Origin: Candidatus Thorarchaeota archaeon MP11T_1
GTDB taxonomy: Archaea; Asgardarchaeota; Thorarchaeia; Thorarchaeales; Thorarchaeaceae
DNA length: 24,980 bases
Direction: 5' to 3'
Assembly: GCA_002825515.1 (NCBI GenBank)
Contig: PJET01000047.1
Coordinates: 1-24,980 of the forward strand
Shown here: positions 1,005 through 23,520 of the stretch, piece after piece
Position numbering within the stretch: the stretch's first letter is position 1
Layout of the letters: the number at the start of each line of letters is the position of its first letter
Program-made: the position numbers and the translations under genes
Notes under the pieces: generated by a model
What the model was told of the DNA's origin: nothing
Database searches by the model: none
Seen by the model: the letters and a program-made list of their open reading frames with translations, nothing else

Positions 1005-1321
1005 CAACTCATCTCCTTTTCCCATTCATAATCAACACTATCGTATTTAGGTGCTCCACATTTAGTGCAGCTTCCTTCTTTCCAAGGATTGCCAGCGTGA
1101 CACCCATTGCATTTCCACGTTGCAGGAAGCTTCTTCTTCTCCCGCGGAGGAGAGACAGGGTGTAAGGGTAGATAGTTGAAGTCATAAGTCATTGCACTTC
1201 CAGAGAATGACTGATCACTATTCATGTATGCTCCGTTGCTATAGACATCATCAAAGAAGGGTTCAACGGCAACATACGAATTACCTAATACGTCCTCTCG
1301 TTGTTTCAGTTTAATTTCCAT
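1004..1321 (-). CDS. RanBP2-type zinc-finger protein, 105 aa
   Basis: The C-terminal third carries W69-x-C71-x2-C74-x3-N78-x6-C85-x2-C88. This matches the RanBP2-type zinc-finger consensus W-x-C-x(2-4)-C-x3-N-x6-C-x2-C in every conserved position, including the Trp and Asn. In characterised proteins this fold binds single-stranded RNA or ubiquitin; the role here is unknown. The N-terminal 60 residues are unrecognised and probably disordered in part (Pro- and Ser-rich). The start has a GGAGGAC Shine-Dalgarno sequence and overlaps the upstream glycosyltransferase gene by 11 bp. Codons 57-61 (Ser-Pro-Pro-Arg-Glu) are encoded by one copy of the dispersed 16-bp repeat. Confidence 0.85.
   Translation of the reverse strand: MEIKLKQREDVLGNSYVAVEPFFDDVYSNGAYMNSDQSFSGSAMTYDFNYLPLHPVSPPREKKKLPATWKCNGCHAGNPWKEGSCTKCGAPKYDSVDYEWEKEMS
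1138..1153 (+). repeat. Dispersed 16-bp imperfect inverted repeat, copy 1
   Basis: The plus strand reads TCTCCCGCGGAGGAGA, identical over all 16 bases to copy 2 read on the minus strand. It has outer arms TCTCC/GGAGA with a central CG. It lies inside the RanBP2-type zinc-finger gene. It is one of five copies; see the dispersed-repeat finding. Confidence 0.8.
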
Positions 1322-2321
1322 CAGTTATGTCCTCCAAGACCTCCTCCCACTTTACAATGAGAGTATCGATCTCTCTTTCCATTGCCTTCTCATGTCCTTG
1401 TCTTGCGATCCATGTCCCATCATTAGCATTATTTACAGCAAGAGTAGCAAGACACTCGTACCATTCTTCTTCGGTCTCCGCATACAACCCTCCCTTCCCC
1501 CAATCCTTATAAGTTGGTAATGGAGTAGCCACGAATGGTATTCCTTTTGCTCCAGCATCCACGAGCTTGATGTCGCTCTTGGCAGCATTGAAGTAGGTGT
1601 TCTCAAGTGGCACTAATAGACAATCAAAATAGCCGAGTGTAGCAGGGTAGTACTCGAAATTAACAGGGGGAATGAACAGCTTCTGTCTCTCTGGTACTTG
1701 GTCAAGCTGTCTGTAGATACCAGGATCACCAGCAATCACAACTCGTGTGTTCTTGTACCTGTTCAGTACTCTTATAAGCCCTTCTCTACACTCCATGAAG
1801 TCTTTCCTGTGCGTCATTGTTCCAGAGAAACCAAAGGTATACATAGAACTGCGAAACCAGACATCCCAATACTTATTCCTTTTCTCCCATCCATTTGGGA
1901 TCACATAAATATTTTCATTCAGTCTCGACATTCTTTCCTTCAGTTCTTCAGTGGTAACGATTATCCCATCTACCTCTGCAAGACTCTTCTCGTGCATGTC
2001 TAACCATAGAGGATCGCCAGAGCCAACGCCAACATAGCCAGGGTGGTTCTTCTCTATTGCAAAGAAGTCATCATCTTGATCTGCGAGTACCTTTATCCCT
2101 GCGTCTTTGAGCTGTTTAATCATGCTCAGATAATGAGGTCTGCTCATGATTACAACATCGACATCAGGTATTTCATCAAGGCGGACATCGGCTCTATATA
2201 CAAGTGTAGTAAGTTTCGGTTGTGGGTAGCCAAGTCTAGCAAGTGCATTTGCTGGCATCAATAACCGAACATTATCGGACACTCCTCTATCGCCCGTCCA
2301 GACTGTTTTGATATTCTTCAT
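1311..2321 (-). CDS. GT4-like (GT-B fold) glycosyltransferase
   Basis: A 336-residue protein resembling GT-B retaining glycosyltransferases of the GT4 type. The N-terminal half has DVVIMSRP (about 54-62), an acidic DDDFF stretch (83-87) of the kind seen in phage and bacterial homologues, and VIPNG (140-144). The C-terminal half begins with a GFSGT loop (164-168), followed by VVIAGD (194-199) and the donor-binding region around K248 to G261 (AAKSDIKLVDAGAKG). In the canonical motif a Glu usually stands near D255. The substrate is unknown: it could modify phage DNA, phage protein or host surface sugar. I prefer the Met at 2321 to 2378 because the frame upstream lies within the preceding gene. 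The Shine-Dalgarno sequence there is weak. Confidence 0.8.
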   Translation of the reverse strand: MKNIKTVWTGDRGVSDNVRLLMPANALARLGYPQPKLTTLVYRADVRLDEIPDVDVVIMSRPHYLSMIKQLKDAGIKVLADQDDDFFAIEKNHPGYVGVGSGDPLWLDMHEKSLAEVDGIIVTTEELKERMSRLNENIYVIPNGWEKRNKYWDVWFRSSMYTFGFSGTMTHRKDFMECREGLIRVLNRYKNTRVVIAGDPGIYRQLDQVPERQKLFIPPVNFEYYPATLGYFDCLLVPLENTYFNAAKSDIKLVDAGAKGIPFVATPLPTYKDWGKGGLYAETEEEWYECLATLAVNNANDGTWIARQGHEKAMEREIDTLIVKWEEVLEDITDGN

Positions 2322-2958
2322 ACTCTCGGTTCTCTTTCTCTGCTTTCTTGAATGCTCCTGCCATATATACAGATACATCTGTTCTTATGTCTGGTATTAC
2401 TGTACCAATAATATAGTCAGGCGTTGGTGTCTTCTCTACGATCTCCTGATACTTGTTCTTAGCTTGCTCGTAGGTCATGCCAACAGCAATCATTTCTGGT
2501 ATGCTGATGACATTCATATCAATCTGAGCTTGACATTCCAGTAAGATCATGCCCTCAAGTAACGAGCGTCTAGGGTGTAGTCCTGCAACGATCATCGCTG
2601 TCTCGATATGCTTGAAGTCCATTCGCTCCGCAGCCAGGATAGAGAACAGAACGCTTCTCTTGATCACTTGAGAAATGTACTCCTTCTGCTCTCTCTCATT
2701 CAGGTCTTGTAGTCTCTTTGCCTGGATTGCTACGGAGTTAGCTAGGATAGGTGCTTGTCCAGTATCTTGATAGACTTCCCATCGAATATAGATGTTGTTC
2801 TTGTCCTTCTCGTTCTCCATTGGTTCAACAGTAATGGTGTACTCGTCTGCGTATCCAAGTAGATCATAGGATTCAAAGATGATAGTGGCAAAGTCAAGGC
2901 TATTCTCCCGTATCATCTCTTCAACTTTTACCTTAGTCTCGATTGTTTTCTTTGACAT
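2287..2958 (-). CDS. Hypothetical protein, 223 aa
   Basis: The start at 2958 is supported by an AGAGGAAACT Shine-Dalgarno sequence. The frame is open further upstream, but that part falls within the preceding gene. The protein has a beta-rich N-terminal part (residues 20-70) and a long helical part (80-200) with a hydrophobic core segment around Ser-Val-Leu-Phe-Ser-Ile-Leu-Ala. The C-terminus is charged. It has no signal peptide and no catalytic motif that I recognise. It is the largest unknown protein in the leftmost unit and lies immediately upstream of the glycosyltransferase gene, overlapping it by 35 bp. Confidence 0.8.
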   Translation of the reverse strand: MSKKTIETKVKVEEMIRENSLDFATIIFESYDLLGYADEYTITVEPMENEKDKNNIYIRWEVYQDTGQAPILANSVAIQAKRLQDLNEREQKEYISQVIKRSVLFSILAAERMDFKHIETAMIVAGLHPRRSLLEGMILLECQAQIDMNVISIPEMIAVGMTYEQAKNKYQEIVEKTPTPDYIIGTVIPDIRTDVSVYMAGAFKKAEKENREYEEYQNSLDGR

Positions 2959-3161
2959 AGTTTCCTCTGTTTTAGACTTCTTCTTCCAATATGGTAGTGT
3001 CCACAAAATGTACACTTGTATATATTCATTCTGATAGTACCGCCGTACCTCACAAGATTGTCATTGTATATCCTTGCACGAGCCTGATTAGCAGACCGCG
3101 CGTTGGCATACTGTTTCTTGCCTTCACATGTTCTTCGTCTAAGTCTACGCTTGCTCGACAT
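2928..3161 (-). CDS. Small basic zinc-ribbon-like protein, 77 aa
   Basis: A very basic protein (Arg and Lys throughout) with Y49-x-C50-x2-C53 followed by G54-H55-Y56-H57-x-G59. Small basic phage and bacterial proteins with a Tyr-x-Cys-x2-Cys-Gly-x-x-His-x-Gly signature are common, and a third zinc ligand could be C12. Nucleic-acid binding is likely from charge and motif, but the function is unknown. The ATG at 3161 has only a weak GAAG Shine-Dalgarno sequence and overlaps the upstream gene by 17 bp, which suggests coupling. It overlaps the next gene by 31 bp. Confidence 0.75.
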   Translation of the reverse strand: MSSKRRLRRRTCEGKKQYANARSANQARARIYNDNLVRYGGTIRMNIYKCTFCGHYHIGRRSLKQRKLCQRKQSRLR

Positions 3162-3453
3162 CTTCTATAAAGCCAGAGGTCATTCCACCCGTAGGCGCAT
3201 ACTCTGTACCCTTGAGCATCCAGTTATATTTGTCTTCAAGTTTATTGTCGATAACGTATTTGTCAAATGCTTCATCTCTTCGGACAAACATATTGCTTCT
3301 ACTAAGTAGCGATTTAGCAAACAGCCATGCGCTCTCAAAGTCCGAGGTAAAACCAGTGGTCTTGAAAGACTTTACAGCAAGACCAGCTTTTACCTGTATT
3401 CCGTCATACTCTCCGTCTTCATTCAGTTTCACTGATAGTGTCGGATGTATCAT
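3145..3453 (-). CDS. Hypothetical protein, 102 aa
   Basis: An unrecognised protein with a beta-rich N-terminal half and a helical middle (residues 38-70, including Leu-Phe-Ala-Lys-Ser-Leu-Leu). Its ATG at 3453 has a TGGAG Shine-Dalgarno sequence about 8 bases upstream and lies 35 bp inside the end of the LexA-type gene. It has no membrane segment and no Cys pairs. The tight coupling to the LexA-type regulator suggests co-expression but does not identify a role. Confidence 0.75.
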   Translation of the reverse strand: MIHPTLSVKLNEDGEYDGIQVKAGLAVKSFKTTGFTSDFESAWLFAKSLLSRSNMFVRRDEAFDKYVIDNKLEDKYNWMLKGTEYAPTGGMTSGFIEDVEQA

Positions 3454-3748
3454 CGTTAAGCTCCATTCTTGCCTGTCTCAATCTTGCATCAAGTTCTCTC
3501 ACGGACACGATTGGTCCTTGGTATCTGACGTGAAGCTTCGCCCTTAGATGACCTTTAGCATCTTTCCATAAGTATCCAGCCTTTATAAGTAGGTCGAGGT
3601 ACTTACTAACATGAGATGTGCTACCGATCTCAAACACGTAGGATAATTCACGTACTGTTGGCGGATAGCCTTGATCTTCGTAGCGTCCAATAATATAGTT
3701 CATCATCAGTACAGCTTTCTCTATTGTCTCTTGCTTAGGGTGGTTCAT
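3419..3748 (-). CDS. Stand-alone LexA-type winged-helix DNA-binding protein
   Basis: Residues 10-60 match the LexA N-terminal DNA-binding domain: a first helix, then GYPPTVREL (27-35), then a recognition helix and a following helix (STSHV at 43-47, through KAGYL at 56-60), aligning with YPPSVREI...SSSTVHGHLARL of Bacillus-type LexA. At 109 residues it ends before any S24 self-cleavage domain: there is no Ala-Gly cleavage site and no Ser/Lys dyad. It could therefore bind LexA-like boxes without being inactivated by RecA (inference). The start at 3748 has a GAGG Shine-Dalgarno sequence; the further-upstream start at 3796 lies within the preceding gene. Candidate targets are the GAAC-N4-GTTA boxes in the P1, P2 and P3 promoters. 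Confidence 0.8.
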   Translation of the reverse strand: MNHPKQETIEKAVLMMNYIIGRYEDQGYPPTVRELSYVFEIGSTSHVSKYLDLLIKAGYLWKDAKGHLRAKLHVRYQGPIVSVRELDARLRQARMELNDDTSDTISETE

Positions 3749-4014
3749 AATTCTATTTCCTCTTCTCTTGCTACAGTCTTGACAATCTCTATACATATTG
3801 CTCTTGGCAGATTGGTTACTGTCATTGAGCCTCCGTACCTGTCATACATGATCCATCTGTTATTGTTCCTATGTCTGACATAATCTTTGACAATAACACC
3901 GTACCTGTCCTCTGCGTATTGCAGTGCCAGTAGCGAGTCTTTTATTTCAGTTGCTGGTTTACCGAGATAGCCTGTGTGGTCTGCTATCAGACCTTCCAGG
4001 TCATGATCACTCAT
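3745..4014 (-). CDS. Hypothetical protein, 89 aa
   Basis: I place the start at 4014 because that ATG overlaps the stop of the HNH-type gene as ATGA, the commonest junction in this genome. The same frame stays open upstream to 4212, and a longer protein starting at 4101 cannot be excluded. The 89-residue form has a charged helix (Asp-His-Asp-Leu-Glu-Gly-Leu) followed by a beta-rich part with Tyr-Val-Arg-His-Arg and Trp-Ile-Met-Tyr-Asp. No family is recognised. It overlaps the LexA-type gene by 4 bp. Confidence 0.65.
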   Translation of the reverse strand: MSDHDLEGLIADHTGYLGKPATEIKDSLLALQYAEDRYGVIVKDYVRHRNNNRWIMYDRYGGSMTVTNLPRAICIEIVKTVAREEEIEL

Positions 4015-4352
4015 CCGCTTGATAGCTTCGATACGTTCTGGACTAACCTTTTTCTCTCTTGTACTGTTTGGGGGAACTGATCTTCGATACTTGTCAGCCA
4101 TTTCAGAATATTTTCTAAGCCTTCGATCTCTATCAGATGCTGAATGCATGTTTCCTGTCCTTCCTTTGTGTGGGCATTTGCGTGACATTTGCTGCCACTG
4201 CCACCTGGACATACGAATACACTGTTATATCTTGAGAAAATGATGTGCTGCTCTTTTGCATGTCGCACCATCCCCCTTGTAATTATTGGCTCATGCATGT
4301 CTGGACTAGAAGGGATAGTCCTCTTGCATATTGCACATGACACTTTCTTCAT
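4011..4352 (-). CDS. HNH-type zinc protein, probable endonuclease
   Basis: The 113-residue protein has C6-x2-C9, then H20-E21, N43 and C48...C56-H57-x3-H61. This order (Cys pair, His-Glu, central Asn, Cys-x-Cys-His/His) fits the zinc-bound HNH (His-Me finger) nuclease fold common in phages. The first catalytic His would be in H20-E21 and the last in H57 or H61. Homing, packaging-associated or recombination nuclease roles are all possible. The start at 4352 has an AAGAAG-like Shine-Dalgarno sequence and overlaps the upstream gene by 47 bp; alternative upstream starts lie within that gene. Confidence 0.65.
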   Translation of the reverse strand: MKKVSCAICKRTIPSSPDMHEPIITRGMVRHAKEQHIIFSRYNSVFVCPGGSGSKCHANAHTKEGQETCIQHLIEIEGLENILKWLTSIEDQFPQTVQERKRLVQNVSKLSSG

Positions 4353-4728
4353 ACCACTTCTTATATCTAGCTTCCCTCTTTCCGAAATCAGGTTCAGCTT
4401 CAACCAGCTTCTCTGCTGATTGTAGGATAGCCCAAGCGTCATCGGTAGTGTCCCAACTGTCTGTCTCTTCATCTATCAGCTCCTTGATAATCGATACACA
4501 TGTCCATGCAGTCAGGTTCTTGCTACTTGTCAATGCTTTGATACCAGTAAGCGTTCTCAGTATCGGTATCCTATTCTTTTTGTTGGACAGTGCAGGAAGT
4601 ATCAGGCTATTCACGCCACCGTAATGATTGGGTTTCGCCTTGGCGAATGTTCTATCCTCCATCATGTCTGACCTGATGGCAGCGACCAGCCTGAATACTG
4701 CTTCGTATTCCTCAGTCATCAAAGTCAT
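4306..4728 (-). CDS. Hypothetical protein, 140 aa
   Basis: A soluble helical protein with no recognised motif. The start is ambiguous because three in-frame starts fall in a short repeat (GACTTTGATGACTTTGATG): GTG 4737, ATG 4728 and ATG 4719. I chose 4728 because an AGGTG Shine-Dalgarno sequence (4735-4739) stands 6 bases upstream. The gene overlaps the 34-aa membrane peptide gene by 17 bp and so is probably translationally coupled to it. Residues 45-75 contain a basic stretch (Asn-Lys-Lys-Asn-Arg) and the C-terminal part is charged. Function unknown. Confidence 0.75.
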   Translation of the reverse strand: MTLMTEEYEAVFRLVAAIRSDMMEDRTFAKAKPNHYGGVNSLILPALSNKKNRIPILRTLTGIKALTSSKNLTAWTCVSIIKELIDEETDSWDTTDDAWAILQSAEKLVEAEPDFGKREARYKKWYEESVMCNMQEDYPF

Positions 4729-4816
4729 CAAAGTCACCTATGTCAAAGTTCAGACCAATGATGATCATTCCAATGACATAGATGATCCTTTCTAACCAGT
4801 TGAAAAACTTATTCAT
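4712..4816 (-). CDS. 34-aa single-span membrane peptide
   Basis: A 34-codon gene with an excellent Shine-Dalgarno sequence (AGGAGG, 6 bases before the ATG at 4816). After a short amphipathic N-terminus (MNKFFNWLER) it has a hydrophobic run of about 13 residues (Ile-Ile-Tyr-Val-Ile-Gly-Met-Ile-Ile-Ile-Gly-Leu) and an acidic tail of repeated Asp-Phe-Asp-Asp. This is the composition of a small inner-membrane peptide. Coding is supported by the ribosome site, by filling the gap between the winged-helix gene and the next gene, and by the overlap with that gene's start. The role is unknown; small phage membrane peptides often interfere with host membrane or cell-division proteins. Confidence 0.65.
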   Translation of the reverse strand: MNKFFNWLERIIYVIGMIIIGLNFDIGDFDDFDD

Positions 4817-4825
4817 CTGTGCCTC

Positions 4826-5074
4826 CTATTCGGGAGACTTGCTCTCGACAATGGAAATAATCTTATTCACTTCGAGAGCCTGTCTCCCAAGGTCAGTCAG
4901 CTGTTTGTTCCTGGCAAGGTTCTCGCCAATACTCTCAACGAGTCCCATGTCTTCTAATGCTTTTATCCTATAGTGGATCGTGGTTGCACTGAGATGAAAT
5001 TCACCTGCAATTTCACGCACAGTCCGTCTTTCATCCACTCTCTTCAGGATCAATAATGCTTCACTATCGTACAT
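4826..5074 (-). CDS. Winged-helix transcriptional regulator, 82 aa
   Basis: An 82-residue stand-alone winged HTH. Residues 16-45 form the HTH (TVREIAGEFHLS, TTIHYRIKALEDMGLV), and 46-67 form the wing and following helix, including LTDLGRQAL as in MarR/ArsR/PadR-type small regulators. No ligand-binding domain or Cys sensor is present. It is the first gene of the P1 unit, with an AAGGAG Shine-Dalgarno sequence and a near-consensus promoter. A 6+7+6 inverted repeat covers the -10 element of that promoter, so autoregulation is likely (inference). It may control the leftmost operon. Confidence 0.85.
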   Translation of the reverse strand: MYDSEALLILKRVDERRTVREIAGEFHLSATTIHYRIKALEDMGLVESIGENLARNKQLTDLGRQALEVNKIISIVESKSPE

Positions 5075-5088
5075 TTCTGCTCTCCTTA

Positions 5089-5107
5089 TATGTATCTATT
5101 GTACATA
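5089..5107 (-). promoter_or_regulatory. Candidate operator, inverted repeat over the P1 -10
   Basis: TATGTA-N7-TACATA is a perfect 6-bp inverted repeat that straddles the -10 element (5098-5103) of P1. A dimeric winged-helix protein is encoded immediately downstream, so this is a plausible autoregulatory site. The binding is inferred, not shown. Confidence 0.45.
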
Positions 5108-5126
5108 ACATTTGTTCAGTTGTCAA
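5098..5126 (-). promoter_or_regulatory. Promoter P1 (sigma-70 type)
   Basis: On the minus strand TTGACA (5121-5126) is followed by a 17-bp spacer and TACAAT (5098-5103). It directs transcription into the winged-helix regulator and the left-hand genes, with a leader of about 17 nt. The spacer carries the 12-bp box GAACAAATGTTA (5106-5117). The -35 lies at the very end of the upstream gene. Confidence 0.8.
5106..5117 (-). promoter_or_regulatory. LexA-like box in P1 spacer
   Basis: The minus strand reads GAACAAATGTTA: a GAAC-N4-GTTA box with the symmetric core AACA-N2-TGTT. It lies between the -35 and -10 of P1, where a bound protein would block RNA polymerase. Related boxes lie in P2, P3 and the small-RNA promoter. 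Confidence 0.55.
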
Positions 5127-5391
5127 CGCTTCTAGGAATGCTGTTGATCTCTTTCCGCAGGTCGATGGTATCCATGTCCTTCAGGGATTTATTCATCATT
5201 GCTTCAAGGCTTACTACCACAATAACCTTGTATCCACGCTTGTCCCACAGCTCCTTTAGTACTTCTTTGTTGATTGCAAATCCAAAGAATATACTATGTG
5301 CATCATCGTCATTTGTTACAAGACCGATATAAGCTTTCAGGTCTCCATGTTCTTCGTAGGTAAAGTATCTATTCCTTATTGATGGGTGCAT
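5116..5391 (-). CDS. Hypothetical protein, 91 aa
   Basis: An unrecognised protein encoded directly after the DnaB-like helicase gene, overlapping it by 23 bp. Its AGGAG Shine-Dalgarno sequence is 7 bases before the ATG at 5391. It appears to be a mixed alpha/beta protein: Tyr-Ile-Gly-Leu-Val-Thr and Tyr-Lys-Val-Ile-Val-Val-Val-Ser strands flank a helix (Lys-Glu-Val-Leu-Lys-Glu-Leu-Trp). No catalytic motif is seen. It is the last gene of the P2 unit, and the P1 -35 element begins at its final codons. A replication accessory role is possible from position only. Confidence 0.75.
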   Translation of the reverse strand: MHPSIRNRYFTYEEHGDLKAYIGLVTNDDDAHSIFFGFAINKEVLKELWDKRGYKVIVVVSLEAMMNKSLKDMDTIDLRKEINSIPRSVDN

Positions 5392-6274
5392 TCAAATACT
5401 CCTGGTAAAGTTTGTTTACGTCCCTCTCGGTCTTTGGTTTGATGTCGATGTCTCCAAGCAGAGAAATATCACCATTGAACCTGACATCAATACTGCCTAT
5501 GCCACTATGTCTTGACTTCTTGATCTTTATTTCTCTAAGCCTCGTGTCTTCCTGACCAGCGACCTCAAACTTCTCTATCTGTAAGAATACATCTGAGTCC
5601 CTGATGATGTCCCTTGACCATAGTACTCTACCCTCATCGTTCAACTGAGCTGCGGCGACTACTGCTATACAGTTACTCAATGCTTCTCCCTCTTTAGGAA
5701 GGGTCAAGCCTTTCAGCCACTTCGAGATGGATGCCATCTCTTCAGTAGTAGACCGCCACTTCATTTCCTTTCTCGTCATCAGCTGGATATAGTCTATGAT
5801 CAGCACTTGAGGTCTATGCTCACTGATCAGACTTGCTATTGAGCTAACATCATTAGCACCATAAGCCCATATCCCACCAAAGCACGAGATTACATTCTTT
5901 GCACTCTCTACCAATCTCCAATCTTCATCCTTTAGCTTCAAGTCTCGGAATATTGTCCTGCTGATCTGTGTATCGTGCGAGAACAGTCTCTCTGCTACTT
6001 GCATTGTGTTCTCTTCAAGTGCTACAAACAGATACTTCAGGTCTGGTTGCAGTCCTAGCATGTAAGCTAGGGAAATCAGGAAGGATGTCTTTCCCATTCC
6101 CGTCTGAGAAGCTACTACCATGTACCAGTCTCTTCCAAGACCACCAAGCATTCTATTCAGGTCTTTCAGGAATAGTGGGTAGCCTCTGTATAGATGTGGA
6201 TATTCGTGCTTGTGCCTTAGCAGAGTAACATAAGACTCCGCTAGTGTTGGTGAGTCTATTCCTCGTCTACCCAT
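5369..6274 (-). CDS. DnaB-like replicative helicase (RecA-fold domain only)
   Basis: A RecA-fold ATPase matching the C-terminal domain of DnaB-family helicases. It has Walker A ASQTGMGKTS (55-64), the glutamate motif VALEEN (84-89), Walker B VLIIDYIQL (157-165), AAQLN (about 206-211) and a C-terminal IKIKKSRHSG with the Lys/Arg expected to act across subunits. At 301 residues it lacks the N-terminal DnaG-interacting collar of full-length DnaB (about 450). Short forms of this kind are common in phages. It should unwind DNA ahead of the fork, loaded by the DnaC-like product encoded just upstream. I prefer ATG 6274 (GGAGG sequence 10 bases upstream) to TTG 6280. It overlaps the loader gene by 8 bp. 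Confidence 0.9.
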   Translation of the reverse strand: MGRRGIDSPTLAESYVTLLRHKHEYPHLYRGYPLFLKDLNRMLGGLGRDWYMVVASQTGMGKTSFLISLAYMLGLQPDLKYLFVALEENTMQVAERLFSHDTQISRTIFRDLKLKDEDWRLVESAKNVISCFGGIWAYGANDVSSIASLISEHRPQVLIIDYIQLMTRKEMKWRSTTEEMASISKWLKGLTLPKEGEALSNCIAVVAAAQLNDEGRVLWSRDIIRDSDVFLQIEKFEVAGQEDTRLREIKIKKSRHSGIGSIDVRFNGDISLLGDIDIKPKTERDVNKLYQEYLNAPINKE

Positions 6275-7079
6275 TGACAAAATCCCTCCGAGCGTCGCTC
6301 ACACTCATAACGAGATGCGTTACTATTTTCTTGTCAGACAGTCTCGATGCAACACGCTTGTTAAGATCAGCCGCTTCTCCCATCTTCATGTTAGTTGCGA
6401 CTATAGTAACAAGTCCCTCGTGATCGCTATATCTTGCATTGATGATATTGTTCAGGGTAGTGTTCACCCAAGGTCCAGAGTATTCCATTCCCCAATCATC
6501 GAAGAACAGAATAGGTATTTGAGTCAGTGCGTCTACATACCTTCCCACATTGCCATTGCGAAGCTTGAACATCATAGCCTCGAACTCCCCTGCCGTGGTG
6601 TAGATAGAGATAGGCTTTACACTTTCTCTCATACCACCCATCATGTGTGTCTTGCCAGTGCCATTACCACCTATGAACAATACCCAAAAGTCGGGTTGCC
6701 TTGTCCACCGCTTTGTAAGGGCGATTGCCTCTTCGATCTGTGGCTTATCGTTTGGAGTACCACGCACAATGAAATCACTGAGCGTAGTATGCTTGTTCTT
6801 GATGCTGTACTCCTTGATGATGTCAGAGAAGCTATGTTGCCATCGCAGAATAGAGCATAGACAAACTACCTCTGTCTCCTCCGCGGGAGAATAAGCTCCC
6901 CATCCATCACAGAACGGACAGGCTTGAATGCCTCTGCTTCGGCGGAGGTTCTCATAAACAATAGACTGGTCAGGAAACCTGTAGCCTAGAGCCTTCAGGA
7001 GCTTACTGACCACGTTGTCAGGATCATTGCTGGCATTCCTCCAGAATATCCATGACTGTAGTCTATTCAAGCTTTTCAT
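6267..7079 (-). CDS. DnaC/IstB-type AAA+ helicase loader
   Basis: A 270-residue AAA+ ATPase of the DnaC/IstB type. It has Walker A GGNGTGKT (137-144), Walker B ILFFDDW (190-196), sensor I VATN (227-230) and an arginine box RVASRLSD (242-249). The N-terminal part has C54-x2-C57 with a later C73-x-C75, which could bind zinc. It should load the DnaB-like helicase whose gene follows with an 8-bp overlap. The start at 7079 has a GGAGG Shine-Dalgarno sequence and overlaps the upstream stop as ATGA. IstB (transposon) identity is less likely because no transposase gene is adjacent. Codons 64-68 are encoded by copy 2 of the 16-bp repeat. Confidence 0.88.
   Translation of the reverse strand: MKSLNRLQSWIFWRNASNDPDNVVSKLLKALGYRFPDQSIVYENLRRSRGIQACPFCDGWGAYSPAEETEVVCLCSILRWQHSFSDIIKEYSIKNKHTTLSDFIVRGTPNDKPQIEEAIALTKRWTRQPDFWVLFIGGNGTGKTHMMGGMRESVKPISIYTTAGEFEAMMFKLRNGNVGRYVDALTQIPILFFDDWGMEYSGPWVNTTLNNIINARYSDHEGLVTIVATNMKMGEAADLNKRVASRLSDKKIVTHLVMSVSDARRDFVNG
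6875..6890 (-). repeat. Dispersed 16-bp imperfect inverted repeat, copy 2
   Basis: The minus strand reads TCTCCCGCGGAGGAGA, identical to copy 1. It lies inside the DnaC-like loader gene and there encodes Ser-Pro-Ala-Glu-Glu. Confidence 0.8.
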
Positions 7080-7525
7080 AAACCCTCCGAGTAGTCGGTG
7101 TCGTCTTGTTCATAATCAAGTGCATCGGTATAGTCTTTCTTCTTTGCTACTTCAGGGTGTTGCTTATACCATACTATTAGCCATCTGGCTTTACGATCAT
7201 GGTTCATGATGTATTTTATCAACATTGGCAACGTCCTGACAGTCTTGTACTTGTTCGCTTTCTTCCATACACTAGCACAGTGTTCTATCCATTCCATAGG
7301 ATACACCGCTTCTTTGCCCGTATCAAGGGACAAAGCTTGCTTCTCGATCATCAAGATTTGACTGCGGAGACCTCTCTCGTCTGGTCTGTAAAGCTGTCGT
7401 CTACTGGCATCAAAGAGCAGCTTCTCTATACTGCTATTCGGTAGTCTCCACTTTGGCATTCTGTTTGGTCTGCCATAATCATCATCAAACTCACTACCAG
7501 CAGGAATGTAGGTTGGCTCATCCAT
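7076..7525 (-). CDS. Hypothetical protein, candidate replication accessory, 149 aa
   Basis: A helical, basic protein with an acidic tail (Asp-Tyr-Glu-Gln-Asp-Asp-Thr-Asp-Tyr). It is encoded directly upstream of the helicase loader with an ATGA overlap. In many phages this position holds an origin-binding or replisome-organiser (DnaD/gp16-like) protein. I see no HTH signature that would establish this, so the role is inferred from position only. The Shine-Dalgarno sequence AAAGGA is 5-6 bases before the ATG at 7525. No other motif is recognised. Confidence 0.8.
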   Translation of the reverse strand: MDEPTYIPAGSEFDDDYGRPNRMPKWRLPNSSIEKLLFDASRRQLYRPDERGLRSQILMIEKQALSLDTGKEAVYPMEWIEHCASVWKKANKYKTVRTLPMLIKYIMNHDRKARWLIVWYKQHPEVAKKKDYTDALDYEQDDTDYSEGL

Positions 7526-7536
7526 TTATTGTCCTT

Positions 7537-7734
7537 TCATGTCATCGGGACTGTATAAATTACTGATGGTTTATCTTGTTTGTAAGCACGTGTAAAGTGT
7601 GGTGTTCTATCAAGATGTCTGACAAGTGCTTTTGCCTGACGCATTGCATCTTCGGCGTCCTGGGCGTCAGGCACTAAGATTACCCATGTTGGTTCGATCT
7701 CTTTCAGCTCAACAGCAACGCTATACACTGCCAT
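7537..7734 (-). CDS. Hypothetical protein, 65 aa
   Basis: A small alpha/beta protein: a beta-rich N-terminus (Val-Tyr-Ser-Val-Ala-Val-Glu-Leu), a helix with Asp-Ala-Glu-Asp-Ala-Met-Arg-Gln-Ala-Lys-Ala-Leu, and a short C-terminal strand. The ATG at 7734 has a GGAGGG Shine-Dalgarno sequence 4 bases upstream and overlaps the previous gene by 14 bp. No family is recognised. The downstream gap to the next gene is only 11 bp. Confidence 0.7.
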   Translation of the reverse strand: MAVYSVAVELKEIEPTWVILVPDAQDAEDAMRQAKALVRHLDRTPHFTRAYKQDKPSVIYTVPMT

Positions 7735-9433: not shown

Positions 9434-9448
9434 CGTACCTCCAGTACG

Positions 9449-10255: not shown

Positions 10256-10278
10256 GTTAGACCTCCATACTTTCCTAC

Positions 10279-11805: not shown

Positions 11806-11806
11806 G

Positions 11807-13650: not shown

Positions 13651-13651
13651 A

Positions 13652-14233: not shown

Positions 14234-14246
14234 ATAAACCTCCAGC

Positions 14247-14274: not shown

Positions 14275-14280
14275 AGAAAT

Positions 14281-14889: not shown

Positions 14890-14890
14890 G

Positions 14891-17321: not shown

Positions 17322-17625
17322 CTGTTTCTCCAGCACTCTCTTCTTTCTCTTCTATCATATCTTCAAACACTGGTATTCTTGCCCTGGTTCTGGCTGTCCT
17401 TTCGGGAAGCTCAGTCGCTGTTGATGGCATCACTTCGCTTGCCCTGACTGATACTACGCCCTTGCCAGGATACCCAAACTCAACGGCATACCATACTTCC
17501 TTACTGTGCCTGATCTTCTCGATCCTGCCAACACATCCTGGTTTTGCGACAGCTACAGTCTTACCGTCTTCAATGCGCTTTCGTTCTACAGTGCCTGTGA
17601 ATACTACAAAGTCTCCTACATTCAT
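17263..17625 (-). CDS. SH3/KOW-like barrel protein with acidic tail, 120 aa
   Basis: The first 65 residues look like a small SH3 or KOW-type beta barrel: VGDFVVFTGTV at the start, then GCVGRIEKI and WYAVEFG. The last 40 residues are acidic and probably disordered (repeated Glu, Asp and Ser). Such barrels often bind nucleic acid or mimic transcription-factor domains. It is the first gene of the P4 unit and directly precedes the RecD2-type gene, overlapping it by 59 bp. GGAGGAC lies upstream of the ATG at 17625. The exact function is unknown. Confidence 0.75.
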   Translation of the reverse strand: MNVGDFVVFTGTVERKRIEDGKTVAVAKPGCVGRIEKIRHSKEVWYAVEFGYPGKGVVSVRASEVMPSTATELPERTARTRARIPVFEDMIEEKEESAGETDEQSAGDDTSEDYEDQVAE

Positions 17626-17676
17626 TTCAAAGTCCTCCGAGGGTATATATAAAGGATGTCCTGATCGTCACATGAA

Positions 17677-17705
17677 ATCATACAATGTTCTCCATGTCAT
17701 GTCAA
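17677..17705 (-). promoter_or_regulatory. Promoter P4 (sigma-70 type)
   Basis: On the minus strand TTGACA (17700-17705), a 17-bp spacer and TATGAT (17677-17682). It lies in the 80-bp gap before the SH3/KOW-like gene and RecD2, with a leader of about 45 nt. Unlike P1, P2 and P3 it has only a degenerate box in the spacer (GAACATTGTA, one base short), so it may be regulated differently. Confidence 0.75.
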
Positions 17706-18677
17706 TCATTCCCTGAAACCTTTTGAGATTGTCTGTAATAAATCATACTCAGAACCACTCCCCCACTCTTCGATGACTGACTTCAGCTTGCTTCTGATCT
17801 CATGAGCATAGTATCTGTTAGGACATTTGACCACGATGATAGACCTGTTCTCATCGAGAAGGAACTCTTCGCCATTGATCTTTGGCGGAGTACCAGTGTA
17901 ACCAGCTCTCAGTTTCCTGACTTCTTTCTCTGTATCACGAGAAGAACTGTCATCTGCTATGAGCTGCAAGGTCGCAGTTACAACACTGGTAAATTTCTCT
18001 ATTGCTTCTTCTTCTTGCTCTGTATATTCTTTCTCAATCTTCTTGATCTCTTTCTTGATTTCTTTGACCTCTTCATTGCTACTCTCTTTGATTTCTTTGA
18101 TCTTCTCTCGTTTCAGCTGGTCAATATAATCAATGTCACTATGGAACTCTTCAAACTGTTGCCTTAGTGTCGAGATAACCCTCCGCATTTTTGTGTAGCG
18201 CATTGGAATTGTCAAAATCTCTTCAGGAATTTCCCCAACCTTCTCGAACCATGGTAACAGTTGTTCAAGCATGAACCTTATCTCTGAATATGCACCATGA
18301 TTGGTGTCTACCGTGGTCAGCTTAGCTGCAAGCCACTCTTTTATGCTCTCATACTCAGCTTCTGGATCAACGAAGGCATAAGCGTTCTTCTTCTTCAGTT
18401 CCCATAGTGCCAGTATGCTAGCTCTCTCCATCGCGGGAGCAAGGACTACAGCATGAACGGTAGCATTACTTAGAGCTACAGCATTGGCGCGCTTGACTGC
18501 ATCAGGAGTATTGAGTTTGTCAATGACCTTGCGATATTCTTTCCAGAACATAGCGCGATGTACATCATTGACGATCTCTTTCTCAATACCAGGATATACC
18601 TCAGTCATCCATCTTGGGAAGTCTCCGTCTTCTGGTATGGTATCTAGGTCGATTGTTCCGTTTGCAAATTCTTCCAT
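17706..18677 (-). CDS. Coiled-coil hypothetical protein, 323 aa
   Basis: A 323-residue protein with a highly charged coiled coil in the middle (about residues 190-230, repeated Lys-Glu-Ile-Lys), between a helical N-terminal half and a small alpha/beta C-terminal part (Ser-Ile-Ile-Val-Val-Lys-Cys-Pro). No catalytic motif is recognised. AAGGA stands 8 bases before the ATG at 18677, and the gene overlaps the nuclease gene by 34 bp. A structural or scaffolding role in the DNA-processing cluster is possible. Copy 4 of the 16-bp repeat lies within it (Ala-Pro-Ala-Met-Glu). Confidence 0.82.
   Translation of the reverse strand: MEEFANGTIDLDTIPEDGDFPRWMTEVYPGIEKEIVNDVHRAMFWKEYRKVIDKLNTPDAVKRANAVALSNATVHAVVLAPAMERASILALWELKKKNAYAFVDPEAEYESIKEWLAAKLTTVDTNHGAYSEIRFMLEQLLPWFEKVGEIPEEILTIPMRYTKMRRVISTLRQQFEEFHSDIDYIDQLKREKIKEIKESSNEEVKEIKKEIKKIEKEYTEQEEEAIEKFTSVVTATLQLIADDSSSRDTEKEVRKLRAGYTGTPPKINGEEFLLDENRSIIVVKCPNRYYAHEIRSKLKSVIEEWGSGSEYDLLQTISKGFRE
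18425..18440 (-). repeat. Dispersed 16-bp imperfect inverted repeat, copy 4
   Basis: The minus strand reads GCTCCCGCGATGGAGA, matching the consensus at all positions except the first. It lies inside the coiled-coil protein gene. Confidence 0.75.
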
Positions 18678-19261
18678 GTCTCAAATCCTTCTATGAATAT
18701 TTCCATTTGCTTGAGCATTGCATACCAGAATACGTGTTGATAAGGTATGATCCAATGTCCCTTGGTTTCATTGCCAAGTCTGTCAATGTACGTTGATTTC
18801 CATGCAAGTCTAAGGTTGTTGAAATAATATGTTGCTCCTTTCAGTCCCCTGGCAGTATCATTGAGAGGCAGGGACTTCTGTCCTCTCTCAAGCATATCCT
18901 TCTCTGCCATGCGCCATCCGTCCCACGGCACTAAGAATGCTTGGATACCGTTTGGTCTGTTTCCCTCACCAAGCTCAATGAATAGATAGCCACCGTATAG
19001 ACCGAGCTTCTCTCGTTGAGTGTCACTGATTGGCTCTTGATGAGGGAACTTCCATGACTTATGTGGTCCTTTGACCTCAATGTAAGTCCATTGTAATGCT
19101 AGAAGATAATCGGGTTGCGTCTCATTCTTTGGCTGTGCTGTATGGCAAACATTGCAATACGACACATCCCTGAACTTGTAAGAGAACGCACCCTTGGGAT
19201 ATATATCATCTAGCAAATGGTTCATGAGATGTTTAGCTTTTTCTTCTGTAGTTTTAGCCAT
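18644..19261 (-). CDS. PD-(D/E)xK nuclease
   Basis: Residues P50-D51, ten residues, then E62-V-K64 (within TYIEVKG) form the PD-(D/E)xK catalytic signature seen in Holliday-junction resolvases and VRR-NUC-type nucleases. C36-x2-C39 precedes it and may bind metal. The remaining 140 residues, rich in Trp and Tyr, are unrecognised. It is encoded with ParB-like, XRE and coiled-coil proteins, next to a recombination helicase unit, so junction cleavage or DNA-end processing is a fair guess. The ATG at 19261 is very close to GGAGGA, with a second GGAG further upstream. It overlaps the preceding gene by 40 bp. Confidence 0.75.
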   Translation of the reverse strand: MAKTTEEKAKHLMNHLLDDIYPKGAFSYKFRDVSYCNVCHTAQPKNETQPDYLLALQWTYIEVKGPHKSWKFPHQEPISDTQREKLGLYGGYLFIELGEGNRPNGIQAFLVPWDGWRMAEKDMLERGQKSLPLNDTARGLKGATYYFNNLRLAWKSTYIDRLGNETKGHWIIPYQHVFWYAMLKQMEIFIEGFETWKNLQTEQST

Positions 19262-19827
19262 TCCTCCAAATACTCCTTCAGTTCTGGATGTTCATCTTTC
19301 TTCTCATCCCAATATCTCTCGCATCTATTTCTGGTATCACACACAGCAAAACTATTGAGCCTTGTCCTACCTTGTGGCGTGTATAGTCTTGGTTCATGTA
19401 ATGCCCAAAGTCTTATTGGTGTGCTCACCCATCCCACGCTATTCCATCCATCATCTTCTGTCCAGTATGTCTTGGCAAGAAGGTTAGGCATCTTGACCAT
19501 GTGATCTAATAGATACTGGTCATTTAGTCCTTCTGCCCATTCAGCATAAGGTTTATCGCCAATCATATAAGACTTGGGAAGTCCATCACCGCCAAATGAT
19601 CCTGATACTGTGATACTTCTACGATCCCATCTGAAAGTACCCATCATGAAGTGACCAAGCTGTCTCATCTTTACATGACGAGCAACACAACAGATAGTAT
19701 GTAGCTTAGTATACTTGCCTTGTCCGCAGTAAGTATTCTCAAGCGAGATCGCAATCAGGAACATTCCCCCTGACTGTTGTCCTGATGTAAGATAGCCTGT
19801 CTCGCTAGGATTCGTCCACAGGTACAT
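19222..19827 (-). CDS. Hypothetical protein, 201 aa
   Basis: A soluble protein with a Gly/Ser-rich middle (Thr-Val-Ser-Gly-Ser-Phe-Gly-Gly-Asp-Gly), several cysteines (Cys-Cys near 46, others spread) and a charged helical C-terminus (Glu-Tyr-Leu-Glu-Glu-Trp-Leu-Lys-Leu). No family is recognised. AGGAGG is 7 bases before the ATG at 19827. It lies between the XRE regulator and the nuclease gene and overlaps both. Confidence 0.78.
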   Translation of the reverse strand: MYLWTNPSETGYLTSGQQSGGMFLIAISLENTYCGQGKYTKLHTICCVARHVKMRQLGHFMMGTFRWDRRSITVSGSFGGDGLPKSYMIGDKPYAEWAEGLNDQYLLDHMVKMPNLLAKTYWTEDDGWNSVGWVSTPIRLWALHEPRLYTPQGRTRLNSFAVCDTRNRCERYWDEKKDEHPELKEYLEEWLKLQKKKLNIS

Positions 19828-20083
19828 CGATAGACCTCCTATTTTTGAGCCATTGAGCGTCTCTTAAAAAGTCTGAGGCAGCACAATCAAGTGCTTTGCT
19901 TATTGCAAGCAGATTATCTGGCGTTACGGTCTTATCACCGTTCTCGATCATAGATAGCCATGGCGCAGAGAAGAAGCAAGCGTCTGCCACTTCTTTTTGG
20001 GTCAGCCCAAGTTCCCAACGCCTAAGCTTTATTGCCAGCCCGATATATTTCAGTTTCCTCTTTCTATAATTAGAGATTGCCAT
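19805..20083 (-). CDS. XRE-family HTH regulator, 92 aa
   Basis: A Cro/cI-type (XRE) HTH spans about residues 15-68: IKLRRWELGLTQKEVADACFF, then the recognition helix (SAPWLSMIENG) and NLLAISKALDC. There is no C-terminal dimerisation or protease domain. It overlaps the ParB-like gene by 14 bp, with AAGGTG upstream of the ATG. It could regulate the cluster or be part of a partition- or immunity-like module. It is one of three small DNA-binding regulators in the window. Confidence 0.88.
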   Translation of the reverse strand: MAISNYRKRKLKYIGLAIKLRRWELGLTQKEVADACFFSAPWLSMIENGDKTVTPDNLLAISKALDCAASDFLRDAQWLKNRRSIDVPVDES

Positions 20084-21053
20084 TCCGCACCTTCGCCAGT
20101 AGCAACTTCAACTCGACAACTGTAGGTTGTCCTGCCTCTGCGATACGGATCAGCCTTAGCAGTTCTGTTTCAAGCTTAACTTTATTGACTATGCCTTCGT
20201 CCTTCTTTTCATCAAGGTCAAACCAGCCATTACCCACGAGCTGTGCCTGTGCCTGATGTACTGCGTCTCCAGCGCGCATCCTTGCTTCTCGCTTTACATC
20301 ATCAGTGGTAATGCCCTTGCCGTCCTCTTCCATTTTCTGCTTATGTAGTTCTAGCAGGTTATCTTGGCGTTCTTCAGGGAGTTTAGAGAGTGCGTCCGCA
20401 GTGGTCTTGCTGATCTCTCCTGTCATGGCAATCATCAGGACTTCATCCTTGATCTGTCCCTTGGTTGCCATCAGGTTCTTGATATATGTCTTCGGTTTAT
20501 TTAGAGCCTTTGACATCCTGTCATACATGCCATTCTCAAGACCATATCTGTCAATGATACGGCGGATCGTGTATAGTTCATTGAGCCAGCTGTACTCACG
20601 CTCTGTATTCTCAAAGAACAGTGCCATCTCCGCATTCATCTCCAGTCCCTCATAAACATTTATGCGGATGCGTTGTGTGTCACTGATCTTCTTTTGGAAC
20701 TGTTGTGCCTGTTTTCTCTTAGTTTCTTTGGTCTCGTCGTCATCTTCTTCGGTAATCTGTACCTGCTCAAGCTGCTCACGACACCACTTGTTTGCCTGAC
20801 GCATTGCATACAGACGACCTTTACCCCAAAGATACTCGTACTCATCTTCATCAACCTTATTGATACCTACTTCATGTATCTGACCTACGGTCAACAAAGA
20901 TTGCGCTAATGAGCTAGGCGGTGGGTCTCTTTGCTGGAGAATCCATTCATCACTTGGCAATCGTTCATCGTAGATGTCCCAGCTTTGAGACTTCGGTCTA
21001 GGAAGTGCTTCAATATCAAAGCCAGTATCTAGTGTCAACGCTACCTTGGTCAT
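20070..21053 (-). CDS. ParB-like DNA-binding protein
   Basis: Residues 45-90 resemble the ParB/Srx N-terminal domain: SSLAQSLLTVGQIHE, then a short strand and YLWGKGRLYAMRQA in place of the usual GxRRxxA box. After a charged insertion (95-125) comes MNAEMALFFENTERE (139-153), resembling the ALxENxxRxx helix. A helical HTH region follows (MYDRMSKALNKPKTYIKNLM, about 176-195). At 327 residues it is of usual length. ParB proteins bind 16-bp parS sites, and a 16-bp dispersed inverted repeat exists in this genome. GAGGAGG lies upstream of the ATG, which overlaps the previous stop as ATGA. No ParA gene is visible in the window. Confidence 0.78.
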   Translation of the reverse strand: MTKVALTLDTGFDIEALPRPKSQSWDIYDERLPSDEWILQQRDPPPSSLAQSLLTVGQIHEVGINKVDEDEYEYLWGKGRLYAMRQANKWCREQLEQVQITEEDDDETKETKRKQAQQFQKKISDTQRIRINVYEGLEMNAEMALFFENTEREYSWLNELYTIRRIIDRYGLENGMYDRMSKALNKPKTYIKNLMATKGQIKDEVLMIAMTGEISKTTADALSKLPEERQDNLLELHKQKMEEDGKGITTDDVKREARMRAGDAVHQAQAQLVGNGWFDLDEKKDEGIVNKVKLETELLRLIRIAEAGQPTVVELKLLLAKVRNGNL

Positions 21054-21886
21054 GCTACCTCCTCTAGTGGAATAACCTTCACTCTATGTACTCTCTCTTC
21101 AAGACGTGCTAATGCATTCAGCGTAGATTGCGTATCGTCCTGATTGTCTTGATAGATTTGCCAGTATCCGAATAGACCAATCGGGATAGTCATGAACCAG
21201 CCTGGAGCAAACTCTGGATCATATCCTTCAGGTGATTTCCATGCCGAGTAAGCACCCCATGGCATCTTCCTGAAGACTTCACGTCCCTTGTCATTCTGTG
21301 CATCACCTTCGACACACTGGAATGTCAAACCGAAACAGGTATGCCCGAATAGTTCCAGCCAATCCTGTGCTGGTTCTAAGTGCATCTTCTTCTCGTCTTC
21401 ATCTATGCACAGACAATCGGGATACACTATCATATCTTGTATCCGCTCCTTATACAGCTTTTCAGGATTGAGGACTACTGCCTTTGGATGAACCAAACGA
21501 TACTGACTTTCAAATGATACATGCTTGAAGTCAGTGGACTTAGGATTTAACCTGTGTAGTCCGAGTTCGATCACTTCCAGAACAAAGTCTGCGAGATTAG
21601 GATAGCTGCCTGATCCAACATAATCCCACATATCATGAATGATATTACCAAGATCATCCTTAGCGAATACAGGACCGTCTTGGTCATATCCAATGACACG
21701 TGGGATCACACGGATACCTTGAGCTGCCAGTCCTAGCTCCTCCAGATTTACAGAAGGAACAGGATCATGGAAGAACTCCCACCATGGAGTACCAGTCTCT
21801 TCTACGCGCGTTGTGAAGTACGCTGTATTCGAGATTGGCAAACCACATCCTCTCGCTACAATGGTTGGTGCGCTTTGATTTGTCAC
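21050..21886 (-). CDS. Hypothetical protein, 278 aa
   Basis: An unrecognised 278-residue protein beginning Ala-Arg-Gly-Cys-Gly-Leu-Pro near its N-terminus, with several Trp-rich stretches (Trp-Trp-Glu-Phe-Phe) and no membrane span. The start is a GTG at 21886 with GGAGG 10 bases upstream; no ATG lies nearby. It ends with an ATGA overlap into the ParB-like gene, so it may be functionally linked to it. A catalytic motif was not recognised. Confidence 0.78.
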   Translation of the reverse strand: MTNQSAPTIVARGCGLPISNTAYFTTRVEETGTPWWEFFHDPVPSVNLEELGLAAQGIRVIPRVIGYDQDGPVFAKDDLGNIIHDMWDYVGSGSYPNLADFVLEVIELGLHRLNPKSTDFKHVSFESQYRLVHPKAVVLNPEKLYKERIQDMIVYPDCLCIDEDEKKMHLEPAQDWLELFGHTCFGLTFQCVEGDAQNDKGREVFRKMPWGAYSAWKSPEGYDPEFAPGWFMTIPIGLFGYWQIYQDNQDDTQSTLNALARLEERVHRVKVIPLEEVA

Positions 21887-21887
21887 T

Positions 21888-22445
21888 TCATCTAGCCTCC
21901 AGTATACCTACATCAAGTTCACGATCACACAGGAATTTACGCCATGACTCCTGCACCATATCATAGGCGAGCTTGAACGGGAATATGTCCAATGGCTTGT
22001 TGTCAATGCCACCAAAATATTGCGCGGCAGCAAACAATACTGCCCTACTCTGATCTAATGTCCTCCTATCAGATATAGACTCGCCGTTGTAATTGAAGTC
22101 CATTACTGCCAGTGGTCTGAGTGCTGTTGCTCTTACTCCCTTGTCCCTTACATGAACTTTGCCTCTGCAATCCCATAACAATACAACTGCATTTAGATTG
22201 TACATGTATTCCTTGATGATCCCCATTGTTCTTACGGCATAGATGCCACATGTACAATCCTTTACTGGTGGAGTAGTATCGCTTATCTCTTGACCAGGAG
22301 TATAGCTATGAGATGTTGGAAGTCTACCGCAGCTGGCATAGACAATCCTACCACGCGGCCACACAAAGTCTGTTCGGGACGGAGAGACAAAGGTACGGTC
22401 AGTCGGGCAGTATTCAACTGCCTTCAACACGACCAGATTTAACAT
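21888..22445 (-). CDS. CxCGIYA-motif protein, function unknown, 185 aa
   Basis: Residues 59-115 contain Pro-Pro-x3-C64-x-C66-G-I-Y-A, then AVVLLWDCRGKVHVRDKG and VRATALRPLAV. This signature (Cys-x-Cys-Gly-Ile-Tyr-Ala...Leu-Trp...Arg-Ala) is seen in uncharacterised proteins of actinobacteria and their phages. The biochemical role is unknown. The ATG at 22445 is 32 bp inside the previous gene and has no good ribosome site, so translation is probably coupled. Confidence 0.75.
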   Translation of the reverse strand: MLNLVVLKAVEYCPTDRTFVSPSRTDFVWPRGRIVYASCGRLPTSHSYTPGQEISDTTPPVKDCTCGIYAVRTMGIIKEYMYNLNAVVLLWDCRGKVHVRDKGVRATALRPLAVMDFNYNGESISDRRTLDQSRAVLFAAAQYFGGIDNKPLDIFPFKLAYDMVQESWRKFLCDRELDVGILEAR

Positions 22446-22596
22446 TGTTTAGGAGTTCAGCGTTCACTTCGACCTTGACAATACCTTCAGGCAACCTTAC
22501 TGGAATGCCATCAGGTGCACCAACACTATAGACTACGTGTTCAGGGTCTTCAAGGTTGAACGTTACCCAAGTTATATCTTTCTTTCCTATGTTCAT
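22414..22596 (-). CDS. Hypothetical protein, 60 aa
   Basis: A small beta-rich protein (Ile-Thr-Trp-Val-Thr-Phe-Asn-Leu...Ile-Pro-Val-Arg-Leu) encoded as the first gene of the P3 unit. GGAGGT stands 8 bases before the ATG at 22596. No family is recognised. As the first gene under a controlled promoter it might be an early regulator, but nothing in its sequence shows that. Confidence 0.75.
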   Translation of the reverse strand: MNIGKKDITWVTFNLEDPEHVVYSVGAPDGIPVRLPEGIVKVEVNAELLNNVKSGRVEGS

Positions 22597-22624
22597 TTGA
22601 CTTTACCTCCAGTGTTATACCTTC

Positions 22625-22653
22625 AGTATAACAGATGTTCAATCGACTGTCAA
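22625..22653 (-). promoter_or_regulatory. Promoter P3 (sigma-70 type)
   Basis: On the minus strand TTGACA (22648-22653), a 17-bp spacer and TATACT (22625-22630) with an extended TGT before the -10. It drives the unit that includes the ParB-like, XRE and nuclease genes. Its spacer is largely occupied by the box GAACATCTGTTA, and copy 5 of the 16-bp repeat overlaps its -35 by two bases. Confidence 0.85.
22629..22640 (-). promoter_or_regulatory. LexA-like box in P3
   Basis: The minus strand reads GAACATCTGTTA, identical to the box in P2 read on the other strand. It lies between the -35 and -10 and overlaps the first two bases of the -10. Confidence 0.6.
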
Positions 22654-22667
22654 TCCCGCGGGGGAGA
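22652..22667 (+). repeat. Dispersed 16-bp imperfect inverted repeat, copy 5
   Basis: The plus strand reads AATCCCGCGGGGGAGA, differing from the consensus in its first two bases. It is the only intergenic copy, sitting between a stop codon and the P3 -35. Confidence 0.7.
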
Positions 22668-22668
22668 A

Positions 22669-23514: not shown

Positions 23515-23520
23515 CCTTGT

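Follow-up and report, generated by a model that had tools for sequence, protein, structure and literature searches.

Five dispersed 16-bp palindromes, probably parS-type binding sites, and a ParB-like gene in an apparent phage fragment

What reads five near-identical 16-letter palindromes that are spread across ~21,000 letters of contig PJET01000047.1 (assembly GCA_002825515.1, filed under Candidatus Thorarchaeota archaeon MP11T_1)? The window, by which we mean the whole 24,980-nucleotide stretch analysed here, looks like a fragment of an uncultured phage (a virus of bacteria). In the best-supported reading, the five copies are probably one family of dispersed 16-bp palindromic DNA-binding sites of the parS type. 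In our judgement, they likely bind some protein, a view we hold with considerable confidence. The best single guess for that protein is the ParB-like product of the gene at 20070-21053, to which we give an even chance of being the right one.

A preliminary description of this DNA had located five copies with 14, 14, 14, 13 and 12 matches to 14 fixed positions, and our motif scan agrees with it for all five. Site 1 (1138-1153, plus strand; TCTCCCGCGGAGGAGA) lies within a minus-strand open reading frame (ORF; 1004-1321), and the minus strand codes there for S-P-P-R-E. Site 2 (6875-6890, minus strand) has the same letters as site 1, falls within the minus-strand gene for a DnaC-like helicase loader (6267-7079) and codes for S-P-A-E-E. 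Site 3 (16355-16370, minus strand; TCTCCCGCGTGGGAGA) codes for S-P-A-W-E within a RecD-like helicase gene (15117-17336, minus strand), and site 4 (18425-18440, minus strand; GCTCCCGCGATGGAGA) for A-P-A-M-E within the minus-strand ORF 17706-18677. Site 5 (22652-22667, plus strand; AATCCCGCGGGGGAGA) is intergenic and shares 2 bases with the -35 box of a promoter-like sequence on the minus strand. Four of the five sites are thus genic, all in minus-strand ORFs. The family consensus is TCTCCNNCGNNGGAGA, a 16-bp palindrome with CG in its left spacer. A scan that allowed up to 3 mismatches returned 11 matches, the five sites on both strands and one at 4822, while 100 dinucleotide shuffles gave a mean of 0.99 matches and a maximum of 5. 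With a weight matrix made from the five sites, and hence trained on them, the sites scored 20.4-25.7 bits and the next window position 9.5. CTCC-N6-GGAG occurs six times in the window, four of them in the sites; counted on two strands, there are 12 occurrences, while 300 synonymous shuffles averaged 1.44.

Is this more than chance? As nulls we used synonymous-codon shuffles, in which the proteins are kept, and codon shuffles, in which the codons are kept. Families were seeded on near-palindromes with at least 6 of 8 pairs and a length of 16, a cut and a length picked after the motif had been seen, and the resulting palindromic-family score of the window was 9.39. This score was reached in none of 15,681 synonymous and none of 15,680 codon shuffles, the top scores being 5.94 and 6.48, respectively. 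The site family exceeds codon-aware chance. A search for 16-mer families without the palindrome restriction, made without reference to the motif, also returned these sites as the best family of the window, again with 9.39; 2 of the 544 synonymous shuffles (0 of 150 and 2 of 394) and none of the 150 codon shuffles scored as high. As an unrestricted repeated 16-mer, the family is less striking than as a palindromic family. In a cruder count, roughly one in three of 40 synonymous shuffles contained an exact 16-mer repeat. The original argument, that GC-rich 16-mers such as these are not expected by chance, was therefore too simple; what held up is the excess of the palindromic family over shuffles. 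A cruder count of word families gave a best word other than the palindromic motif, and we discarded unrestricted Hamming counts of such families as uninformative, since low-complexity words dominate them.

Real phages provided a second control (41 loci, each 20 kb or longer, retrieved with RecD and including some near-duplicates). The unrestricted score did not set the window apart, as 15 of the 41 loci scored above it. With the palindrome condition on, 7 of the 41 exceeded 9.39, six of them with a G+C content of at least 0.62, and since these loci outscore the window, a high palindromic-family score does not name a binder. The seventh (L126, IMGVR_UViG_3300028840_003815; G+C 0.35) carries four copies of another dispersed palindrome, GTTCYACGTRGAAC, at 13758, 14492, 15900 and 16116, two of them directly behind ORF ends. 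High-scoring dispersed 16-mer families were also seen in L152 (TTGACRTTGTGTCAA-like), L154 (TGCTTCGGCAGGAAGC) and L195 (ATTTTCGTCAAGCGAA). Across 1.46 Mb of RecD-fetched loci, the weight matrix found no position reaching 18 bits and three reaching 15.

Scanning viral contigs for the 14-base pattern yielded at least 120 loci. Among the 120 listed, a second site scoring 20 bits or more was present only in L080 and L103. These two are 99.88% identical across 12.2 kb and were counted as one phage, whose whole record (L207) has 16,814 bp. Its sites, TCTCCCGCGATGGAGA and CCTCCCGCGTGGGAGA, are 2,549 bp apart. One of them is read in another codon phase and codes for L-S-I-A-G, so the family can occur without S-P-x-x-E; the other codes for SPTRE. 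In nine of the 120 listed loci, a second place lay within one mismatch of a looser 12-base pattern. Six of these nine have a G+C content of at least 0.60, and the others are L004, L080 and L103. When the two sites were aligned with the five of the window as TCTCCCGCG-NN-GGAGA, positions 3-9 and 12-16 (12 in all) were invariant, one of the two added sites having been fetched by that very pattern.

The second phage also resembles the window in composition. Of 179 loci, L080 and L103 correlate best with the window in tetranucleotides (0.646 and 0.635), ahead of the next phage at 0.523, and thirds of the window correlate at 0.62-0.69 among themselves. In codon-usage correlation across 197 loci, L103 (0.835), L207 (0.769) and L080 (0.756) were again the top three, with 0.834 between the halves of the window. 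Seven L207 proteins compared with PHROG families gave a portal and a minor tail protein, with a weak match to a tape measure protein. A 555-amino-acid protein of L207, taken for the large terminase, had no PHROG match, and a scan with it returned only the two contigs already known. From composition and sites, the L207 phage may be the same lineage as the window or a sister lineage, and perhaps represents its structural part. L207 also encodes, at 8270-10840, an 856-amino-acid protein in which a THTADTPQLSQKQ-like unit is repeated many times; one of the 16-mer sites falls there.

The seven sites bear on whether the copies could instead act as RNA hairpins in the transcript, a reading to which we give hardly any credence. 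The sites do have inverted-repeat arms of about 5 bp. However, folding stability showed no excess in any of the five window copies (z -0.75 to 0.39), and the predicted folds differ. Across the seven sites, none of the five pairs had changed on both sides, as the left arm varies and the right remains GGAGA. No Rfam family matched at gathering score. We rejected RNA hairpins on these three grounds.

If the copies are protein-binding sites, which protein reads them? The preliminary description had proposed parS-like sites recognised by a ParB-like neighbour. Dispersed parS-type sites remain the best-supported reading and the neighbour does look ParB-like, while its binding to the sites is a step that we infer. 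The gene (20070-21053, minus strand; 327 amino acids) lies 1.6 kb from site 4 and 1.6 kb from site 5. Its product has two homologues besides itself (51 and 48%) among 5.8 billion proteins, at the sensitivity of the search. ENxxR is Box III of the ParB-CTPase fold. This box (E148-N-x-x-R152) and GxxR (G77-K-G-R80) are invariant in all three family sequences, and the pair occurs in the order GxxR, ENxxR only once across the six frames of the window and L207. GxxR is Box II of the same fold in the part of PMC12704722 that treats its boxes. The protein matches the ParB-like PHROG 4715 with an E-value of 3.6e-4, and two of the three family members match at E-values up to 1. A helix-turn-helix (HTH) is only suggested: hhalign aligned the corresponding region to the HTH of N15 SopB with an E-value of 0.0026 and a probability of only 11.6. 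In the literature, we found no paper on this ParB-like protein or on the 16-bp site, and a search directed at orphan ParBs of phages with dispersed palindromes listed one on SGI1 and the parABS of the IncC plasmid.

Site 5 lies on a promoter-like sequence. The sigma-70-like match TTGACA-17-TATACT (22625-22653, minus strand; 11 of 12) stands upstream of a minus-strand ORF run that includes the ParB-like gene and, adjoining it, a gene for an XRE/HTH_3 regulator (19805-20083, minus strand); the next ORF begins at 22596. The -35 box TTGACA (22653-22648) is overlapped by site 5, and the -10 box TATACT (22630-22625) sits within a perfect palindrome, GTTATAC-N5-GTATAAC (22614-22632). Two different palindromes therefore meet on one promoter. 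Promoter-like matches are not in excess in the window (24 found versus 26.0 in shuffles). The palindrome on the -10 box is perhaps the operator of the XRE protein, and a weaker copy with 2 mismatches (23507-23525), directly upstream of ORF 23120-23506, makes a second candidate XRE operator; with 3 mismatches tolerated in the search, two matches do not exceed chance (18 of 100 shuffles).

The sites could also be real and dispersed and yet serve another binder, such as a phage repressor, a protein of phage replication or packaging, or a DNA-binding protein from the host or a plasmid (for example, a resident ParB) exploited by the phage. We regard this as possible, if doubtful. The excess over codon-aware chance holds whatever reads the sites, and besides the XRE protein the window encodes HTH proteins at 4826-5074 (HTH_24) and 3419-3796 (LexA-like). 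Two sites fall within genes for a helicase loader and a RecD-like helicase, and site 5 touches a promoter-like sequence. However, the XRE protein, which the preliminary description had offered as an alternative reader, is weakened in that role by its different operator candidate. Simple repressor operators normally lie in promoter regions, and four of the five sites are genic.

Several observations weigh against dispersed sites for a ParB-like protein, and they concern the sites, the protein and the comparison loci in turn. Site 5, the one intergenic copy, is the weakest, with 12 of 14 matches. All four genic copies begin on a codon boundary in one common phase and read SPPRE, SPAEE, SPAWE and APAME (S/A-P-A/P-x-E). 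S/T-P-x-x-E is a typical helix start, or helix cap. The copies could thus be a by-product of coding, in which S-P-x-x-E helix starts (TCT CCx xxx xxG GAG A) look palindromic and four of them are alike by an accident of codon choice. In line with this, no further [SA]P[AP]xE occurred in the 51 minus-strand ORFs examined, the pattern being derived from these copies, and the unrestricted 16-mer score was occasionally reached by synonymous shuffles. We nevertheless consider it unlikely. Coding alone does not account for the sites, because synonymous shuffles keep the proteins yet never build the palindromic family, and after these palindrome-restricted shuffles we dropped coding as the leading idea. 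In addition, CCC and GCG are minority codons in the window (32 of 328 Pro and 50 of 491 Ala), site 5 lies between genes, and the phase differs at one L207 site.

The state of the sites in relatives counts, as judged from protein sequences, against a fixed, conserved site. Conservation in relatives had been put forward in the preliminary description as a check, and it failed at both places where it could be made. The nearest RecD relative (P0002, 54% identity) has SPVWE at site 3, so that core position 8 cannot be C. A DnaC relative (P0125, 54% identity) has SPINE at the place of site 2, which breaks four fixed positions. None of the two checkable sites is intact at this distance, and the remaining 13 aligned RecD sequences (40-45%) have no S-P-x-x-E at the place of site 3. 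P0002 and P0125 both retain S, P and E while the rest has changed, a point in favor of the coding by-product. We read the pattern as sites gained in this lineage at places that the protein tolerates.

As for the protein, no Pfam or NCBIfam ParB model matches it, and one family member matches an unnamed PHROG about equally well (3.2e-4). It has no sequence relative in the PDB, and its AlphaFold model is poor (predicted local distance difference test score 52.9), with no useful match in a fold search. The ParB-like assignment, from three sequences in all, is weak. Of the features of a parABS system, parS-like palindromes with some near parB are present (sites 4 and 5), and a ParA ATPase beside ParB and a ParA-binding motif were not seen. 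The six frames of the window and L207, which are both fragments so that parA may lie elsewhere, contain no ParA-type Walker motif. By eye, the 327 amino acids contain no (L/F/I)G(K/R)G(L/F/I), the ParA-binding motif in the ParB N-terminus according to the section of PMC12704722 that deals with it. Lacking both, the protein would be an orphan ParB. The same section describes orphan ParBs as widespread, phages included, with different members binding different nucleotides. As for the second phage, single thirds of the window correlate with L080 and L103 at 0.46-0.66 in tetranucleotides, and in codon usage the next locus comes near (0.718 versus 0.756-0.835). No gene or overlap shared between L207 and the window was detected, so the link consists of composition and sites. 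Comparison loci were selected by the motif or by RecD, and are non-random with duplicates included.

With these points set against it, the parS-type reading remains the one we prefer, and for the binder we propose the following. An orphan ParB-like protein would load at the five sites, as KorB does at OB or SopB at the dispersed inverted repeats of phage N15. A dimer would bind a site, a nucleotide-dependent clamp would close, and the protein would spread along the DNA, such that phage DNA is held or partitioned, genes are silenced, or both. The sites would be scattered through the early region of the phage and perhaps its structural genes. At site 5, on the -35 box upstream of its own gene, the ParB-like protein may repress its own operon, with the XRE repressor acting beside it through a separate operator on the -10 box. 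A bolder version is tentative and, in our judgement, rather improbable: a ParA-less orphan ParB would load at genome-wide palindromes in early and structural genes and bring the whole genome under one organisation or silencing, as a KorB-like switch in a virus, and the sites would have been written into tolerant helix starts through the choice of codons. Should the proposed ParB-like reading hold, the known dispersed ParB sites would be joined by ones with a new specificity and with a layout that is ParA-less and embedded in genes. This would suggest that orphan ParB-like proteins of uncultured phages can be matched to their sites from sequence alone.

Nearly all genes of the window, from the ORF list, are on the minus strand, and they include a DnaB-like helicase, the DnaC-like loader, the RecD-like helicase and a glycosyltransferase. 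No structural gene was named above the cut-off among 22 window ORFs scanned against the family library, and the window ends have no exact overlap. A perfect sigma-70 consensus (TTGACA-17-TATAAT; 10279-10307, minus strand) stands just upstream of ORF 9449-10255, which encodes an AAA_24 protein, and a terminator-like hairpin of 10 pairs (14313-14339, plus strand) lies between ORFs 13652-14233 and 14350-14889.

The window had no DNA match in phages by close-match search, with 1-8000 and 16001-24000 also searched at distant sensitivity, and 15117-24980 had no close match in plasmids. With tblastn against phages, nothing matched the ParB-like protein or ORF 23476-24096, and all matches of RecD, DnaC and the glycosyltransferase were below 60% identity. 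Scans of viral contigs with the ParB-like protein, RecD, the ParB alignment, the DnaC alignment and ORF 17706-18677 yielded no relative. The RecD alignment gave 249 viral-contig matches; in the best 80 of the 249, best-segment identity was at most 39% and no ParB-like match had an E-value below 0.7. Among genome contigs, the ParB alignment gave none and the DnaC alignment one distant match.

Which known systems do these sites resemble? By analogy, they most resemble landing sites of ParB-type clamp proteins that hold, partition or silence viral or plasmid DNA. Chromosomal parS and Noc sites are palindromes with a central CG, a likeness to the window sites, and they are read by proteins with an HTH and a CTPase box, as suggested for the window protein. 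They differ in site sequence, and the window protein is a phage protein without a curated family match. Noc is a chromosomal orphan ParB of canonical architecture, as an excerpt of PMC12704722 has it. Phage RedRock, like the system proposed here, has partition with ParB sites, and differs in that these are two clustered loci of eight 8-bp direct repeats with parA adjacent (as set out in part of PMC7157519). The likeness to stoperators drawn in the preliminary description goes no further than dispersed sites for one phage protein. Those of the mycobacteriophage L5 type number more than 20, and each is an asymmetric 13-mer that follows the direction of transcription and is placed in a promoter or a short intergenic space, in the account that portions of PMC9283540 give; the window sites are palindromic and four of five are genic, and we rejected the stoperator reading.

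KorB of plasmid RK2 has 16-bp OB sites, the same length as in the window. In the passages of PMC11790492 that concern it, KorB has a ParB N-terminal domain and acts as a sliding clamp and as a silencer with a small DNA-binding partner, from OB sites located upstream of the promoters it represses, either proximally (4-10 bp) or distally (45 to over 1000 bp). Site 5, in contrast, overlaps the -35 box by 2 bases, and the XRE protein as partner is a guess. The two palindromes on one promoter in the window may recall OB and OA, the sites of KorB and KorA in those passages.

Scattered sites for SopB- and KorB-type proteins are described in a portion of PMC5016525, and phage N15 offers a similar layout. 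Using a pattern read from the oligonucleotides for IR1 to IR3 in PMC7205306, we found places in N15 at 33479 (one mismatch, inside gene 37), 35930, 41124 and 45561, the first of which we take to be IR4. N15 differs from the window in several ways. It has ParA (SopA) beside SopB, and no ParA was seen in the window; three of its four sites are outside genes, with one in an annotated terminator stem-loop, and four of five are genic in the window. Site sequences differ, and SopB matches a ParB-like PHROG at 8.5e-115 whereas the window protein matches weakly. Nevertheless, the SopB palindromes are the top palindromic family of the N15 genome (8.76, compared to 9.39 in the window), and the palindromic-family score with synonymous shuffles could be applied to other phages encoding ParB-like proteins. 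Like the window, N15 has a few near-identical dispersed palindromes, one within a replication gene (gene 37) and one, among the three outside genes, close upstream of a promoter, 20 bp before its annotated -35 box.

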